DNA of 39,314 bases, from the IMG/VR virus record IMGVR_UViG_3300023180_000146, positions 1-39,314 of that record, one strand, 5' to 3'. The notes below the pieces were generated by a model. That model searched no databases, was not told where the DNA came from, and saw only the letters and a program-made list of their open reading frames with translations. The translations under genes and the position numbers were made by a program. The stretch comes from a virus. Positions 1 through 39,188 of the stretch are shown one piece after another (within the stretch, counting starts at the first letter, position 1; every line of letters begins with the position of its first letter).

Positions 1-110
1 TGAGTAAGCAATTCGTCTATATGCTCACAACCACTAATCATATCAGTAGTAATAGCATCTTCTACGTCTTGCTCAAGGGCAAGTGTTTTAAGTGACTTAT
101 CGTATTTCAT
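1..110 (-). CDS. Hypothetical protein, N-terminal fragment (cut by window edge)
   Basis: The first 36 codons of a gene running off the left edge; the protein begins MKYDKSLKTLALEQD and is acidic after the first few residues. An AAGGA ribosome binding site lies 5 bases before the ATG at 110. It is the first gene after the promoter at 228-256 and the structured leader at 131-212, so its expression is probably controlled by that leader. I do not recognise the family from this fragment. Confidence 0.7.
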   Translation of the reverse strand, partial: MKYDKSLKTLALEQDVEDAITTDMISGCEHIDELLT

Positions 111-130
111 AACAATCCTTTTAGTAGTTC

Positions 131-212
131 ATAGAGACTTGCAGTTAATCTAGAAACGCTCCAGTTGCCGTGTGGCATTCAGTTAATCTAGCGTTTCGCC
201 AGTAGTCTCTAT
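131..212 (-). ncRNA. Structured 5' leader RNA with twin internal loops
   Basis: Read on the minus strand, three nested helices can form: P1 (212-204 with 139-131, 9 bp), P2 (197-190 with 160-153, 8 bp) and P3 (177-174 with 169-166, 4 bp, loop of 4). The P1 and P2 arms are perfectly complementary. On either side of P2 the same two strands face each other, ACTGG and TAGATTAACTG, with 5' and 3' strands exchanged. The element starts about 9 bases after the predicted transcription start and ends just before the ribosome binding site of the gene at 1-110. It may be a cis-regulatory RNA, a processed small RNA, or a DNA-level dyad operator. It lacks the T-arm and overall geometry of a tRNA. Confidence 0.6.
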
Positions 213-227
213 CTCGACTATGTGTAT

Positions 228-256
228 AGTATCGCATACTTTCTGGTAAATGTCAA
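228..256 (-). promoter_or_regulatory. Sigma-70-like promoter with A-tract upstream element
   Basis: The -35 TTGACA (256-251) and -10 GATACT (233-228) are separated by exactly 17 bp. Upstream, positions 257-298 read on the minus strand as four or five A-tracts of about 7-9 A repeated roughly every 10 bp, typical of a bent UP element. The bases around the -10 form a small dyad (AGTAT, GCG, ATACT). The predicted start near 221 gives a leader of about 110 bases ahead of the gene at 1-110. Confidence 0.75.
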
Positions 257-298
257 GTGTTTTTTTGCTTTTTTTTTAACTTTTTTTCGTTTTTTTCT

Positions 299-483
299 CT
301 TGACACGGGCGCTCGTATGTGCGAAAAGCAAAGATGATATTCCCTATTATATTTAATTGCGTTATTTCGCCCTTTTGAGCAATTCATTCTTACCATATCT
401 GTGTATTATTGTGTGAAATAGTGTGAAAATGTGGGGTAAATATATGCTGTTTTTGTGAACATTCATGCTATATGTGTGAACTA
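299..483. other. Non-coding region with phased TGTGAA boxes
   Basis: No convincing gene lies here. On the plus strand TGTGAA occurs at 412-417, 422-427, 454-459 and 475-480. Two further copies at 494-499 and 505-510 lie in the 3' end of the next gene. The start-to-start distances are 10, 32, 21, 19 and 11 bp, close to whole turns of B-DNA. The left part is AT-rich except for a short GC-rich patch near 307-324. A role as a protein-binding array (operator or origin iterons) is an inference. Confidence 0.5.
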
Positions 484-1654: not shown

Positions 1655-1811
1655 AACTTCCGTCTTTCATTTGCTCTATACAGACAAATCCTTGCTGTTC
1701 TAAGAACTCTGTATACTTCTCTATTTCTGCTTTTGCTCTCATGCGAGTACCTACTTTATATGAAATGTAGATAGTTGCAAGTGCGATTACTGTGTGTAAA
1801 ATCGGATCCAT
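1614..1811 (-). CDS. Small membrane-anchored protein, unknown
   Basis: A 65-residue protein with one N-terminal hydrophobic helix (about residues 3-20, ILHTVIALATIYISYKVG) and then a charged cytoplasmic-type tail, so probably a single-pass membrane protein. Its ATG shares one base with the stop codon of the upstream oxygenase gene (TAATG), which suggests translational coupling. No family recognised. Confidence 0.6.
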   Translation of the reverse strand: MDPILHTVIALATIYISYKVGTRMRAKAEIEKYTEFLEQQGFVCIEQMKDGSYEFIKHWKRQEQN

Positions 1812-2371
1812 TACTTTTCCTCGTCTACGAATGCTACTGAATTAATAATCATGCGTCTATCAGTATTTATTGGATTGCTACTGCAATGTTTGTGATATGC
1901 ATCAAATAATACCGCACGATTTGCTTTAGGCGTCACTCTTCTATTTTCTTCACCAAAGAAGAATGTATCACCATCACTATCATGCAGATAGAATATACAT
2001 GACACTGCACCGTCTGCATCTGTGTCTGTGTGTGGAGGATGAAATGGTGGTGCATTAGGACATGGCATAAGCAGATTTGCTTTGATACGATGAAACTTTA
2101 GACTATCAAATATCCACTTACGCTCAGACTTCTCTAGTGCTTTGACAGCGATGTTGTAAAACTCAGGCCATCTGTTTATTATATCGTTTTCTGCAGTATT
2201 TTTATCGCTATCTGCTAAACATATTGGACGTACCATCTGCGGTGTATCTGCACCCATTATACCTTCTGTGGTTCCGGGAGACCATCTCCATAAGAAATTA
2301 CAATCGGAAATTAGACCATATATCAACTTAAATGTATTATCATCTAAGACATCATCAATTACTTCAATCAT
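1811..2371 (-). CDS. 2OG-Fe(II) oxygenase (prolyl-hydroxylase-like)
   Basis: A 186-residue protein with the double-stranded beta-helix signature of 2-oxoglutarate/Fe(II) dioxygenases. H114-T-D116 is the HxD motif, H162 (possibly H160) in HKHCSSNP is the distal iron ligand, and R172 or R173 is placed to bind 2-oxoglutarate. Such enzymes hydroxylate proteins, nucleobases or small molecules using O2; the substrate here is unknown. They are common in marine T4-like phages. It lies two genes after another 2OG oxygenase and three after a carbamoyltransferase in transcription order, so the two hydroxylases could supply hydroxyl groups for that enzyme (inference). Confidence 0.85.
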   Translation of the reverse strand: MIEVIDDVLDDNTFKLIYGLISDCNFLWRWSPGTTEGIMGADTPQMVRPICLADSDKNTAENDIINRWPEFYNIAVKALEKSERKWIFDSLKFHRIKANLLMPCPNAPPFHPPHTDTDADGAVSCIFYLHDSDGDTFFFGEENRRVTPKANRAVLFDAYHKHCSSNPINTDRRMIINSVAFVDEEK

Positions 2372-2372
2372 T

Positions 2373-2576
2373 TTACACCGTAGGGTCTGGATTATTCTTC
2401 TTATCTTGTACTGCTTTACGCTCTACTTGACACCACTTCTGCAAGTCGCTCATGTGCTTTCTTGCTCTTGTGCCTGCTGACTTATTACCTTTCTCATAAA
2501 AGGTCTGTGTCTCTAATTTAATCATACGAACTAAATCATCTAGTTCAAAAATGCTCTCTTGCCAATCACTCATCAT
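2373..2576 (-). CDS. Small helical protein with KGNKSAGTRARK motif
   Basis: A 67-residue, basic, helical protein. The stretch KGNKSAGTRARKHMSDLQKWCQ (about residues 29-50) matches a motif I associate with small, sometimes 'histone-like', proteins in marine T4-like phages. Basic residues and helical character would suit nucleic-acid binding, but this is inference. The AAGGA ribosome binding site favours the first of two adjacent ATGs. It overlaps the upstream gene by 11 bases. Confidence 0.65.
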   Translation of the reverse strand: MMSDWQESIFELDDLVRMIKLETQTFYEKGNKSAGTRARKHMSDLQKWCQVERKAVQDKKNNPDPTV

Positions 2577-3033
2577 CGTCTTCCTTTTTTGTAAATTGAT
2601 TTGGTTGTACGTCAGTCAAAAGATTAGGAAATGCTTTACGCACAATCTCTCTAGTGACGTTAGGATATAGTTTGCTTATATCTTTATCTTTAGCGGCGCA
2701 TACTAAGTCCGCTTCTTCCCAGTGTATTCCTTCTAGGATTTGTACGAAAACCATCTCTTTTCGCATCTTCGGTAGTGGGTCGCTTACGGCGCATCGTGCC
2801 AAGCGTCTACTCTCAGTGTACAATGAGGCGCTAGACATGCCCACAGGTTCTCTTGTGTCTCTTTTGAATGGTGGCGCCCCTTCTGGTAGGTCAAGCACGA
2901 TGTTCTTATCAAACGCTAGTGCTAAAATATTGCGTAGAGGTCGTAGGTTATTCTGTTGTAGAATGCGAATTCGTTCGGCCTTGCTTGGCGCATCATTACA
3001 TTGTTTCAAAATCTCAGGTATATGCTGTCTCAT
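2566..3033 (-). CDS. Conserved T4-like phage protein (DUF6433-like)
   Basis: A 155-residue protein that I associate with the DUF6433 family of marine T4-like phages, on the basis of LRPLRNILALAFDKNIVLDLPEG and the PPFKRD...GMS segment that follows. No biochemical role is known to me. A GGAG lies before the ATG. A late promoter box TATAAATA at 3063-3070, about 30 bp upstream, suggests late expression independent of the upstream oxygenase gene. The tail is acidic (KKEDDDE). Confidence 0.65.
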   Translation of the reverse strand: MRQHIPEILKQCNDAPSKAERIRILQQNNLRPLRNILALAFDKNIVLDLPEGAPPFKRDTREPVGMSSASLYTESRRLARCAVSDPLPKMRKEMVFVQILEGIHWEEADLVCAAKDKDISKLYPNVTREIVRKAFPNLLTDVQPNQFTKKEDDDE

Positions 3034-3051
3034 AATGTCTCCATTTATCTG

Positions 3052-3693
3052 TTAATCAACTATATTTATATTGCCTGCAACGCTTACTCTTTCGACATCT
3101 TCTGTGAATGGATATACTTGATGCTCTAACCATCCGGGAAACACTACAATCTCACCCTCGACAGGAAAGTGTAGCATACGATTAGGTGAGCATCGATGCA
3201 CTTCACCATATCTCCACTCTATCATACCATCTACAGGATCATTTACACTTCTGTCTTGATACTCATAACCTATTGTAGGGTCTGTTAATTCGTTCTTTAC
3301 ATATATCACAAATGCGTAGTTTGCTTCTTCATGCGTATGATGACCTATTGCTTGATTTGCATGTTGTACGTTCATCCACACATTGTCCAACTGTAGTTCA
3401 TCGATATCCCGAAAGTCTTGAGCATTCAGACCTTTTGTGAAACTGCTTACATGACCTAATATCTCATACAATGCGGCATAGTGAAGCACACTGTTCTCAA
3501 ACTCAAGTCTATTATTCTGTGTAGTTGTATGGCACAACAAATCTTTTACACTTTCTCTTGATTCCCGCACCATCTGTTTAATAGTAACTAAAGTATCAGC
3601 ATTTACTGTGCTTTTGTATATGGGCGGACCAAAGTATCTATTACAACCGTTTTGTAATAAAGGTCTTTCGTATTTTCTTAGTTTCTTGACCAT
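3052..3693 (-). CDS. Putative 2OG-Fe(II) oxygenase
   Basis: A 213-residue protein. The segment WMNVQHANQAIGHHTHEEA followed by FPGWLEHQVYPF and ERVSVAGNI resembles the 2OG-FeII_Oxy_5 type family, which has a paired-histidine ligand motif (H119/H121 here), a distal H191 after FPxWLEH, and R202 for 2-oxoglutarate. It starts 16 bases inside the end of the carbamoyltransferase gene with a strong GAGGAG site, so the two are co-translated. The substrate is unknown; a shared pathway with the carbamoyltransferase is likely from context. Confidence 0.75.
   Translation of the reverse strand: MVKKLRKYERPLLQNGCNRYFGPPIYKSTVNADTLVTIKQMVRESRESVKDLLCHTTTQNNRLEFENSVLHYAALYEILGHVSSFTKGLNAQDFRDIDELQLDNVWMNVQHANQAIGHHTHEEANYAFVIYVKNELTDPTIGYEYQDRSVNDPVDGMIEWRYGEVHRCSPNRMLHFPVEGEIVVFPGWLEHQVYPFTEDVERVSVAGNINIVD
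3063..3070 (-). promoter_or_regulatory. T4-type late promoter box TATAAATA
   Basis: An exact TATAAATA on the minus strand, about 30 bp before the ATG at 3033, inside the last codons of the upstream oxygenase gene. In T4 this octamer is recognised by the phage late sigma factor gp55. Chance occurrence in AT-rich DNA cannot be excluded. Confidence 0.5.
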
Positions 3694-5384
3694 GCTACTC
3701 CTCTATGTTCACAAGTATATACATCAGCACCAACAACTAGTACATCAGGTCCATACTCTTCTGTAAAGGAAAAAGCATCACCTGTTGTGTGACACATGGG
3801 TTTACTGTGTGCGTTGAGTGATGTGTTTACAATAGCAGGTGGTTGACCGTATTGTTTTAATTTTTTCAGTAGTTTAGCATACGGACCATCGTTCACTGTT
3901 TGATATCTTACAGTATTATCTACATGAATGACACCTGATAATTCGCTTTCACCTTCAGGCGTTGGTCTTGCGGTATGTAACATATATGGCGATTTAGTCT
4001 TTGTGTGTAACAGTCTAGACAAGTCTTCTTCTAATATAATGATGCCATATGGACGCCACCATTCTCTATTCTTTAATTTACGTTCATTGAAATAATGTGC
4101 CGCATACTGTCTATTAGGAAGATATATCAAAGAGCGATTACCCAATGCTCTTGGACCAATGTGACTTTCTCCTTGACATACTGCTACAATTTTATTCGAT
4201 ATCAGCATATCAACTACTGTAGCAATTGCCTCATCATTCATCATAGGTATTTCTTCTGACTGCCAGTTCGTTGTAGGACAAGCAGGTGCTTTGATACCCA
4301 TGAAATCTAAAAATGCAAACATAGCACCAAGAGATTGACCTTCATCACCAACACTAGGTGGTATTCTCATGTTTGGAAACTTCTTGTTTAGTATTTCATT
4401 GATTACTACATTGTGTGCTACACCACCACTATAACTAAACTCTTCATCATCTGCACACCATTTAGAAAAGAATTCTTCTAGTTTTTCTGACAATACTATC
4501 TGCCATGTATGCATCCAGTTAAGGTGCCACATGTTTATGAATGGATGACCTTCATTATGATGCCAAACCATAGAATGAATGTATTTACTTGTTTCAGGAT
4601 TCACACTTCGTTTATCCCTTGCTATAGCATCTAGACCATGACCAAAATAAGTATCATCTTCAGTATGGTCACTTTTTGGTACATATTTCCATTTATTCAT
4701 TGCTTCAGCAACAAAATCTTCAAATGAGAATGACCTTAGATGTTCAGCATATGCATGATTGTACTGACCATATGATATCAGACCCATTAAATTACCACTG
4801 CGGTCAGCAAATGAGTTACCCCATGTCCATGAAGGTCCTCTGCCTAACAAGTCTGCAGATGCATCATAATACAAGTCTCCAATCGAACACATATCTTGTT
4901 GTGTGTATTTTTTCACACGCTTATTACCTTCGAACACGCTAATGTGTACACCATAATCACCGCAACCATCAATGACAATACCTTTGTTTTTTCGACCAAA
5001 CAACCACTCGGCGTTCATGTAGTGTGCAAAGTGATGCTCACATCTATAGTACTTCTTTGCACGATATGGTAAGGACTCAAATACATTTGTGAATGTTTCT
5101 TCGCTAATCTCTAGCACAAATTCATTTTCTTTGTACCTCCAATTCATATTTGCTTCATACTTTGGATTTTCAATCTGTTCACCTACAGTGACTACAATAA
5201 CATCTAACTCTAGAGGAATATTCATACCTCGTAGGTCATCTACTAACTTAGGAAAGTCCCACTTGTAGTAGTGATACTTCTTGATACCCTTTACACGCTC
5301 AAGATTTAGATAAGTTGCTTTGTCGCCATCGTAGTATGTCACGTTGGCGTCATGGTTGATAAGATGTAGTGCTAGTACTTTCAT
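3678..5384 (-). CDS. Carbamoyltransferase (NodU/TobZ family)
   Basis: A 568-residue enzyme of full family length. The N-terminal Kae1/actin-like half carries CEHHFAHYMNAEW (metal-binding HHxxH near residue 118), VIDGCGDYG, and later FSYSGGVAHNVVINE and HIGPRALGNRSLIYLP. The C-terminal half ends with PAIVNTSLNAHSKPM and TEEYGPDVLVVGADVY, typical of the carbamoyltransferase C-terminal domain. Known members transfer a carbamoyl group from carbamoyl phosphate, through carbamoyl-adenylate, to hydroxyls of sugars, antibiotics or, in some phages, 5-hydroxymethylcytosine in DNA. The acceptor here is unknown. The gene sits directly after RNase H (TAATG overlap) and before an oxygenase. Confidence 0.92.
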   Translation of the reverse strand: MKVLALHLINHDANVTYYDGDKATYLNLERVKGIKKYHYYKWDFPKLVDDLRGMNIPLELDVIVVTVGEQIENPKYEANMNWRYKENEFVLEISEETFTNVFESLPYRAKKYYRCEHHFAHYMNAEWLFGRKNKGIVIDGCGDYGVHISVFEGNKRVKKYTQQDMCSIGDLYYDASADLLGRGPSWTWGNSFADRSGNLMGLISYGQYNHAYAEHLRSFSFEDFVAEAMNKWKYVPKSDHTEDDTYFGHGLDAIARDKRSVNPETSKYIHSMVWHHNEGHPFINMWHLNWMHTWQIVLSEKLEEFFSKWCADDEEFSYSGGVAHNVVINEILNKKFPNMRIPPSVGDEGQSLGAMFAFLDFMGIKAPACPTTNWQSEEIPMMNDEAIATVVDMLISNKIVAVCQGESHIGPRALGNRSLIYLPNRQYAAHYFNERKLKNREWWRPYGIIILEEDLSRLLHTKTKSPYMLHTARPTPEGESELSGVIHVDNTVRYQTVNDGPYAKLLKKLKQYGQPPAIVNTSLNAHSKPMCHTTGDAFSFTEEYGPDVLVVGADVYTCEHRGVAWSRN

Positions 5385-19129: not shown

Positions 19130-19608
19130 GTTCTAGGTGCCGAACTCTTAATTGCGAAACGTCCAAATGCACGAACTGCATAGTATGCGGAATATTTCTT
19201 CCAACTTGCGACTTTAGGTTCAGTGTCTCCCATTGCTTCTAAAAATACATCGTCTGCTATTTTTCTCAATTTCTCAAATGTTGAGGGTGTTACTGTTTCG
19301 CGTACTGCGTTAATTTTTTCATATAGAATATCATGTATAACAGCAGGTCTTGCTACATCGAATGGTGCAATAAATGCCCAACATGCTCTCGGTACTGATG
19401 CCATATCTGTCACATAACCTAGAGGCACCGAGATTTTACCAGTTTGATAGATTTTAATATCTACTTTACATGAAGAGAACAACTCCATTTGTTCTTTGGT
19501 TAATGATGCGGTATAGGTTAATGGTTTCTCTAGTCTCCACTTTTTAGGTCTCTTAAAAGACCCAATAAGAAGTCCATTCCATTTACTTCTCTTGTCCGGA
19601 TTTGGCAT
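19123..19608 (-). CDS. DUF1353 family protein
   Basis: A 161-residue protein with the DUF1353 signature: ISVPLGYVTDMASVPR followed by PAVIHDILYE and later ADDVFLEAM. The conserved Asp and His residues could bind a metal, but no activity is known to me. DUF1353 genes are frequent in phage lysis or tail regions. It overlaps the o-spanin gene by 26 bases, and a late promoter box lies about 80 bp upstream of its ATG. Confidence 0.8.
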   Translation of the reverse strand: MPNPDKRSKWNGLLIGSFKRPKKWRLEKPLTYTASLTKEQMELFSSCKVDIKIYQTGKISVPLGYVTDMASVPRACWAFIAPFDVARPAVIHDILYEKINAVRETVTPSTFEKLRKIADDVFLEAMGDTEPKVASWKKYSAYYAVRAFGRFAIKSSAPRTW

Positions 19609-19963
19609 TATTCTCTCCCTCGTAGTAATCTCGGTACTGTATTATTAATTCTTTTTGTGTACCAAGATATGTTTTGATATCTGCAATATTTATACTTAGT
19701 GCTTCGTAACCATCTGCAGTCAGCGCAAATAGAGCAATTGGTTGTCCCTGTGCTTCTAGTTCTTCAAATATTTGTTCTGCGTTCTCTCTTGTAACCACAA
19801 TCCAACTAGTATCTCGCAATACTAAAGGTTCTGGATTAGGTAAATTCAAAGCAGGTTTAGATACTTCGACTTTGACTGTTTCAATCTGCTTGACAGGTTC
19901 ACGAAATAACGCACAACCTGATAGTAAGATTACACTACTCAGCAGTAAGATTTTCGATATCAT
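19583..19963 (-). CDS. Outer-membrane lipoprotein, probable o-spanin
   Basis: A 126-residue lipoprotein: hydrophobic signal (residues 2-15) and lipobox LLSGC with C17 as the predicted acylated residue, followed by a Pro-rich linker and a region WIVVTRENAEQIFEELEAQGQ...ALTADGYEALSINIADIKTYL that I recognise from phage lysis regions. Its gene overlaps the end of the i-spanin gene by 29 bases, the classic Rz/Rz1 arrangement. It should sit in the inner leaflet of the outer membrane and, with the i-spanin, fuse the two membranes at lysis. Confidence 0.8.
   Translation of the reverse strand: MISKILLLSSVILLSGCALFREPVKQIETVKVEVSKPALNLPNPEPLVLRDTSWIVVTRENAEQIFEELEAQGQPIALFALTADGYEALSINIADIKTYLGTQKELIIQYRDYYEGENNAKSGQEK
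19687..19694 (-). promoter_or_regulatory. Possible late promoter box TATAAATA
   Basis: An exact TATAAATA inside the o-spanin gene, about 80 bp before the DUF1353 ATG. The coding location lowers confidence. Confidence 0.35.
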
Positions 19964-20309
19964 TTAACACATCCTTTGTACCTTTATTTAAGATACGCTC
20001 TATTAATTTTGGTTTCTCTACTGCAAGATAGTTAATATCATGGTCTGCAAGTTTCTTCTGCAACTCTGCTTTTGCACCATTCAACTCTTTTACTTTATCT
20101 GTCAGTTCAACATTTGCAACCATAATCTGTTCATAAGATTTCTTTTGCATCGCAATAACTTCTTGTTGCTCTGTGATACTCTCTTCAAGTTTTATTTGAT
20201 TACCTTTGAGTATTTCATTATCGTGCTGTAATTGTTTTACATAGTAAAAAGCACCACCTGCTCCCGCAAGTAGCACTACAACCATAGCAATTTTAATTGA
20301 ACTAAACAT
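19935..20309 (-). CDS. Inner-membrane coiled-coil protein, probable i-spanin
   Basis: A 124-residue type II membrane protein: one N-terminal transmembrane helix (about residues 6-24, IAMVVVLLAGAGGAFYYV), then a long periplasmic-type coiled coil (about 26-92). This is the topology of Rz-like i-spanins. The gene overlaps the lipoprotein gene at its 3' end, which is why I call the pair spanins. It binds the o-spanin across the periplasm in the last step of lysis. Confidence 0.78.
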   Translation of the reverse strand: MFSSIKIAMVVVLLAGAGGAFYYVKQLQHDNEILKGNQIKLEESITEQQEVIAMQKKSYEQIMVANVELTDKVKELNGAKAELQKKLADHDINYLAVEKPKLIERILNKGTKDVLNDIENLTAE

Positions 20310-38683: not shown

Positions 38684-38788
38684 TTACATGCACAAATCTT
38701 CATATTTGCCAGAGTGTAGTCTATGTTGAGACATATCACCGACAATAGAAGGTCTATACCAGAAAACTTTTCTAAACCAACTAAGCAT
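38684..38788 (-). CDS. Possible 34-residue peptide after regA
   Basis: A short frame starting MLSWFRKVFWYRPSIVGDMSQ, whose ATG overlaps the regA stop. The composition (Trp, Arg, Tyr) is peptide-like rather than random. Support is the overlap with regA, typical of this genome, and sense composition; the ribosome binding site is poor. A second frame of 28 residues (38617-38703) overlaps its end. If both are real, the regA-hsp20 gap is almost fully coding. Confidence 0.35.
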   Translation of the reverse strand: MLSWFRKVFWYRPSIVGDMSQHRLHSGKYEDLCM

Positions 38789-39188
38789 CTATTTTTTTCT
38801 TTCCTATGTTGTATTTAGTTTCAAGTATCCATTCATTCTTTTCTTTGAATGCAATTACTTTAATTTGAGATAAGGGTGCTTGGTCAGCAATCTTATCTTC
38901 AGCGACTACAGAAATTAATCCCCAATCTTTCAAAAGTTTTACAATGGTATTTCTACGCTCTTGGTCTTCTTGTGAAAAATTTGTTTGCTTGCCATCTAAA
39001 CCGAACAACTCTTTAAAGTGTACGATAAAGTATCTACCTTGCTTATGCAAGATATGACAAGACTGATATAATTTCTTGTCTTTCTTTGACGCAATTCCCA
39101 TGCGAGAAAGTGTCTCTCTAATTTTTAGAAAATCATCAGGTTGAGACAGCGTAACCTCAACCATATTTTCAACTGTCCAATCATTCAT
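38781..39188 (-). CDS. regA: RegA translational repressor
   Basis: A 135-residue homologue of T4 RegA (122 residues). LSQPDDFLKIRETLSRMGIASKKDKKLYQSCHILHKQGRYFIVHFKELFGLDG and the C-terminal KVIAFKEKNEWILETKYNIGKK closely match T4 RegA. It binds near the start codons of early mRNAs and represses their translation. It extends about 10 residues beyond T4 at the N-terminus and has a basic tail. The gene order gp62-regA is as in T4. GGTGGAG precedes the ATG, which overlaps the gp62 stop (ATGA). Confidence 0.95.
   Translation of the reverse strand: MNDWTVENMVEVTLSQPDDFLKIRETLSRMGIASKKDKKLYQSCHILHKQGRYFIVHFKELFGLDGKQTNFSQEDQERRNTIVKLLKDWGLISVVAEDKIADQAPLSQIKVIAFKEKNEWILETKYNIGKKKIDA

Follow-up and report, generated by a model that had tools for sequence, protein, structure and literature searches.

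A modular internal-loop RNA recurs in early-gene leaders of T4-like and T5-like marine phages

Results

A structured leader at the end of a T4-like phage fragment

The stretch of DNA analysed here (39,314 nt, hereafter the window) comes from a T4-like marine myovirus. This 39-kb fragment encodes gp43, gp41, UvsX, a primase, RegA, Hsp20, NrdA/B and spanins. By their helicase, the isolates closest to it include Pelagibacter phage HTVC008M and Methylophilales phage Melnitz. On the minus strand close to its first nucleotide, a consensus scan identified a promoter, TTGACA-17-GATACT with an extended TG (256-228), followed by a leader and a small early gene that the contig end truncates (Table 1). 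The product of this gene resembles that of a 69-aa gene located behind the leader of another phage, L379 (51% over 37 aa). Upstream of the leader gene (1811-5384, minus strand) lie genes for two 2OG-Fe(II) oxygenases and a Nol-like carbamoyltransferase. Note also that the start region, GGATTGTTATGAA (106-118, minus strand), bears a likeness to the RegA target consensus; RegA itself is encoded at 38781-39188.

The initial annotation of the leader was made from the sequence of the window, and most of its description held. The repeat ACTGG-CGAAACGC-TAGATTAACTG is present on the minus strand at 203-180 and recurs as ACTGG-AGCGTTTC-TAGATTAACTG at 165-142, the middle parts being complementary as claimed (GAAACGCT and AGCGTTTC), and the window contains no further exact copy of TAGATTAACTG. 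The proposed 9-bp outer helix (P1), in which 212-204 pairs with 139-131, and the 4-bp inner hairpin TGCC/GGCA are likewise where it had put them. The element was correctly placed between a strong promoter and the ribosome binding site (Shine-Dalgarno sequence, SD, at 120-116), a layout found at four loci, the window among them. The two equal asymmetric internal loops stood only in part: the loops are conserved, but they are not plain 5x11 loops, since CUGG can pair with CUAG. With this pairing in place, two nucleotides bulge out of one strand, and AUUAACUGMA in the other faces a lone A.

Table 1. Features of the leader region in the window
Feature	Position	Strand	Basis
A-tract-rich stretch upstream of -35, UP-element-like	257..299	-	sequence; function inferred
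-35 hexamer TTGACA	251..256	-	consensus scan
-10 hexamer GATACT, extended TG, 17-nt spacer	228..233	-	consensus scan
P1 5' arm AUAGAGACU	204..212	-	pairs with 131-139, 9 bp
R strand of module 1, A-CUGG-CG	197..203	-	module model
P2 core 5' strand AAACG	192..196	-	compensatory changes vs L379
L strand of module 2, CUAG-AUUAACUG-AA	178..191	-	module model, 54.3 bits (in training set)
P3 hairpin UGCC-ACAC-GGCA	166..177	-	sequence; altered with compensation in L379
R strand of module 2, A-CUGG-AG	159..165	-	module model
P2 core 3' strand CGUUU	154..158	-	compensatory changes vs L379
L strand of module 1, CUAG-AUUAACUG-CA	140..153	-	module model
P1 3' arm AGUCUCUAU	131..139	-	pairs with 204-212
Shine-Dalgarno AAGGA	116..120	-	sequence; ahead of ATG at 110
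Downstream early gene (MKYDKSLKTLALEQ...), truncated by contig end	1..110	-	homologue of 69-aa gene behind L379 leader

The element recurs at four further loci

Pattern scans of 2.9 million viral contigs revealed the element at four loci beyond the window: L379/L383/L385, an orthologous leader in a T4-like phage whose downstream gene is homologous to that of the window; L126/L133, in a second T4-like phage; L392, in a T5-like phage; and L415, on a T4-like contig, where the element lies near a UvsX-like gene (identified by eye). Comparison of the genomes (G028, G001 and G030 correspond to L383, L126 and L392, respectively) placed the window, G028 and G001 among the T4-like phages, and G030 carries a T5-type polymerase, a ligase and an SbcC-like protein. 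An overlapping Rz-like spanin pair is common to the T4-like window (19583-20309, minus strand) and the T5-like carrier (L484 73-814, plus strand). In four of the eight carrier contigs the element is situated within 1 kb of a contig end (window, 131; G028, 81151; G029, 414; G030, 51607), a placement that may reflect a variable region, repeats or genome ends. We found no second element in the carrier contigs that were searched.

In four leaders, which are 111-156 nt long, P1 lies directly behind a sigma70-type promoter, beginning at approximately +7 to +17, and an SD and ATG follow downstream. Among the distinct matches examined, P1 arms of 9-10 bp and a promoter occur together only in the window, L126, L379 and L392. 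(The patterns that found L126, L379 and L392 did not include the P1 arms or the promoter.) L415 has no clear promoter and no gene directly downstream. The ~400 nt downstream of the L415 element (3100-3500, minus strand) are devoid of a long open reading frame, end in a hairpin-like run (AAGGACTCTTTAGCGAGAGTTCCTT) and may represent an unannotated RNA; they have no match in Rfam.

The genes downstream of the elements are small and mostly unrelated, and a query with the downstream 69-aa protein returned the L379 group only. In one related phage, with similar promoter and gene order, a short leader takes the place of the element, which is therefore probably optional. Note that the protein similarity of the gene behind this short leader is not significant, so its orthology rests on position. 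In the close relative L159, the leader behind another promoter (~812, plus strand) is a simple hairpin, GAGATTGCATTTTGCAGTCTC, and lacks the module.

The repeating unit is a single internal-loop module

Comparison of the loci revealed that the repeating unit is one internal-loop module, in which [helix a]-YUAG-AUUAACUG-MA-[helix b] (the L strand) faces [b']-A-CUGG-MR-[a'] (the R strand). In this geometry YUAG pairs with CUGG, the latter being followed by a bulge of 2 nt, and the two helices are free in sequence yet paired. Each element contains two or three modules, which can be in either orientation. The window and L379 each carry a pair of modules placed head to head across a common helix of 5 bp. 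In L392 the corresponding helix measures 3 bp and joins two good modules, and a degenerate third is also present; in L126 three modules are stacked with the same orientation, such that the strands follow the order LLL..RRR. The variants comprise a one-base insertion in L379, a two-base insertion in L126, and degenerate further copies in L392 and L415. The pseudo-symmetric twin arrangement described for the window thus does not extend to L126, with its three same-orientation modules, or to L392, with its degenerate third. Because the number and orientation of modules differ among the window, L379, L392 and L126, pseudo-symmetry is a special case, one arrangement among several.

Comparison with relatives favours a rod

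The window leader is more stably folded than shuffled sequences (z -2.9). The computed minimum-energy fold is a multibranch structure in which each repeat forms its own hairpin (-25.2 kcal/mol, compared to -18.0 kcal/mol for the rod), but comparison with relatives favours the rod as the probable fold. The window and L379 differ by two double changes in P2 and one in P3, each of which retains pairing, and the other differences are mostly at A/C positions. A self-hairpin for each repeat was rejected: outside CUGG/YUAG at most two pairs are kept per unit, and no R-then-L neighbours occur in L126 from which such a hairpin could form.

Among eight aligned modules, 98.9% of the pair cells are standard, compared to 26-43% paired after slides of 1-3 columns; double changes occur in 7 of the 11 pairs, and the covariation score was reached by none of 500 shuffles. 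(The alignment was cut by hand, its helix-sharing modules W1/W2 and N1/N2 are not independent, and the structure test was also run on seven modules.) YUAG:CUGG is nearly invariant, and the case for its pairing comes from geometry and a single C/U exchange. A strict-register descriptor matched only the window, L126, L392 and L415, together with one false match in repetitive, low-complexity sequence, in 3.86 Mb, much of which consisted of loci preselected for the L motif; the thresholds of the descriptor were set after the modules had been seen. L415, which was outside the training set of the module model, scored 37.6 bits (E 9.6e-10), with 11 of 11 pairs standard.

The number of distinct loci is small. 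Compensatory helix changes and conserved loops, the marks of a conserved structured RNA, are both present, and we consider a real RNA structure to be well supported by these comparisons. The suggestion of the initial annotation that structure is under selection gains from the compensatory changes in P2 and P3 and from L126, L392 and L415, where the module recurs but its helices are unrelated. Neither of the outcomes it had named as contrary, an absence of covariation or loops that drift freely, was seen among the loci found.

Database, isolate and literature searches

The element had been said to match no familiar riboswitch class, and Rfam 15 agrees: there was no match at the gathering threshold in the whole window or L379/L385, and nothing credible at E up to 5-10 in the leaders of the window, L392 and L126 or in the L415 region. 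No homologous leader turned up in isolate phages when the leaders of the window, L126, L392 and L379 were used as BLASTN queries. Two module models gave weak matches only on eleven isolate phages (T4, KVP40, HTVC008M, Melnitz, P-SSM2, S-H38, S-H35, S-SCSM2R, Aeromonas 65, pVp-1 and KKP_3711; T5 and Serratia phage Slocum were outside this set), and the three matches that were looked up lie inside genes. A text search of the literature with the core string gave no phage paper among the matches listed.

Several candidates were set aside. Matches to the single-repeat pattern were mostly coding sequence; most paired-pattern matches and the matches in bacterial genomes look like chance or coding; and L408/L416 and L371 are coding or repetitive. 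The 16S rRNA-like strings (AACUGCA, ACUGGC) were dropped, most of them being absent from L126 and L392.

Discussion

We lean, if only slightly, towards the view that the element acts in cis as a structured 5' leader of an early phage transcript, in the form of a rod of two or three modules that offers a multivalent platform to a trans-acting, probably host, factor. Its most likely function would be as a docking site for a factor that controls early phage mRNA. Each module would be the putative binding site for one trans-acting factor, two or three such sites would provide avidity, and binding may tune the stability or translation of the adjacent early gene; alternatively, the factor may act on the polymerase rather than on the fate of the mRNA. 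We consider a host factor likelier than a phage protein, since no regulator common to the T4-like and T5-like carriers was found, the proteins that they share in these incomplete contigs being replication and lysis genes. (As the contigs are incomplete, a shared phage regulator could have been missed.) The strong promoters, the small and mostly unrelated downstream genes, and the occurrence in two phage types between which no common regulator was detected lead us to favour a platform for a host factor. More tentatively, and with somewhat less confidence than doubt, we suggest that the element represents a modular RNA class not described before, in which a host factor would dock at internal-loop units that are interchangeable and act multivalently, and which lytic phages of unrelated kinds, T4-like and T5-like, would have acquired before different early genes.

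Other explanations have to be weighed against a binding platform. The rod begins some 7-17 nt from the predicted 5' end and does not clearly sequester the SD, and RNase III is known to target phage early mRNAs; the leader might thus be a putative mRNA stabiliser or RNase III processing signal, with a 5' rod that protects or is cut and loops that serve as recognition determinants. Such elements, however, seldom require a strictly conserved 10-nt loop with a fixed bulge, and the inter-module helices are only 3-9 bp long, so that we regard this explanation as unlikely. Conserved internal loops between free helices, repeated in the manner of tandem aptamers, would also suit a candidate riboswitch with two or three small-molecule aptamers. 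An expression platform is what one would then look for, but no terminator-like site was found in the element, and no switch platform is evident because the SD, modelled in isolation, has an unpaired probability of 0.52-0.66, with no clear sequestration. Given also that the downstream genes are unrelated and that no Rfam class matches, a riboswitch seems very unlikely.

We think it less probable again that the element is a putative stable small RNA or decoy that accumulates alone and sequesters a host RNA-binding protein. The strong promoter, the compact fold, the multiple identical sites and the lack of a gene directly behind the L415 element accord with such a role, but four elements continue into an SD and start codon without a terminator. 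Quite unlikely, too, is a candidate put-like element, in which the nascent leader would bind RNA polymerase and resist pausing and termination across the early genes. Its position directly after strong early promoters is like that of HK022 putL (PMC9378689), and the independence of put from any phage protein fits the occurrence of the element in unrelated phages. Against this, early genes behind the L385 leader have further strong promoters and hence less need for read-through, and the element appears to be a single rod of repeated loops rather than the two stem-loops in ~73 nt that characterize put: covariation favours the rod, but the energy model yields a multibranch of hairpins.

Structured leaders have been described for few lytic phages. 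That this element, sharply defined in geometry and without an Rfam entry, turns up in marine phages of both the T4-like and the T5-like kind makes the factor to which it points worth capturing. The 39-nt module model can be used for searches, and modules of this small size lend themselves to pull-down and structural studies.

Several known systems share features with the element. Type III toxin-antitoxin RNAs (ToxI-like) consist of direct tandem repeats followed by a terminator and then a toxin gene, and they resemble the element in having short repeats after a promoter and ahead of a gene. The element differs in that its repeats are not simple tandem ones (LLL..RRR in L126) and no terminator follows them; the proteins downstream of L379 and L126 have no credible Pfam match and were not recognised as toxins. 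Phage RNase III processing sites, such as those of T7, are likewise irregular hairpins in early transcripts, whereas the element has a recurring, strictly conserved asymmetric loop module. Guanidine-II and glycine riboswitches are tandem-module cis-regulatory RNAs that, like the element, repeat conserved loops within a single leader; in contrast to these, the element has internal-loop modules in one rod, in either orientation, with no expression platform seen and no Rfam match. The put RNA of HK022 comprises two stem-loops in ~73 nt, acts in cis after phage early promoters without a phage protein, and renders RNA polymerase resistant to terminators via the beta' zinc-binding domain (PMC9378689). 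Like the element, putL and putR are structured RNAs just 3' of phage early promoters, but they form two stem-loops where the element would form one rod with two or three repeated internal-loop modules. Of the published systems considered, HK022 put RNA is the nearest functional parallel, with a different architecture.
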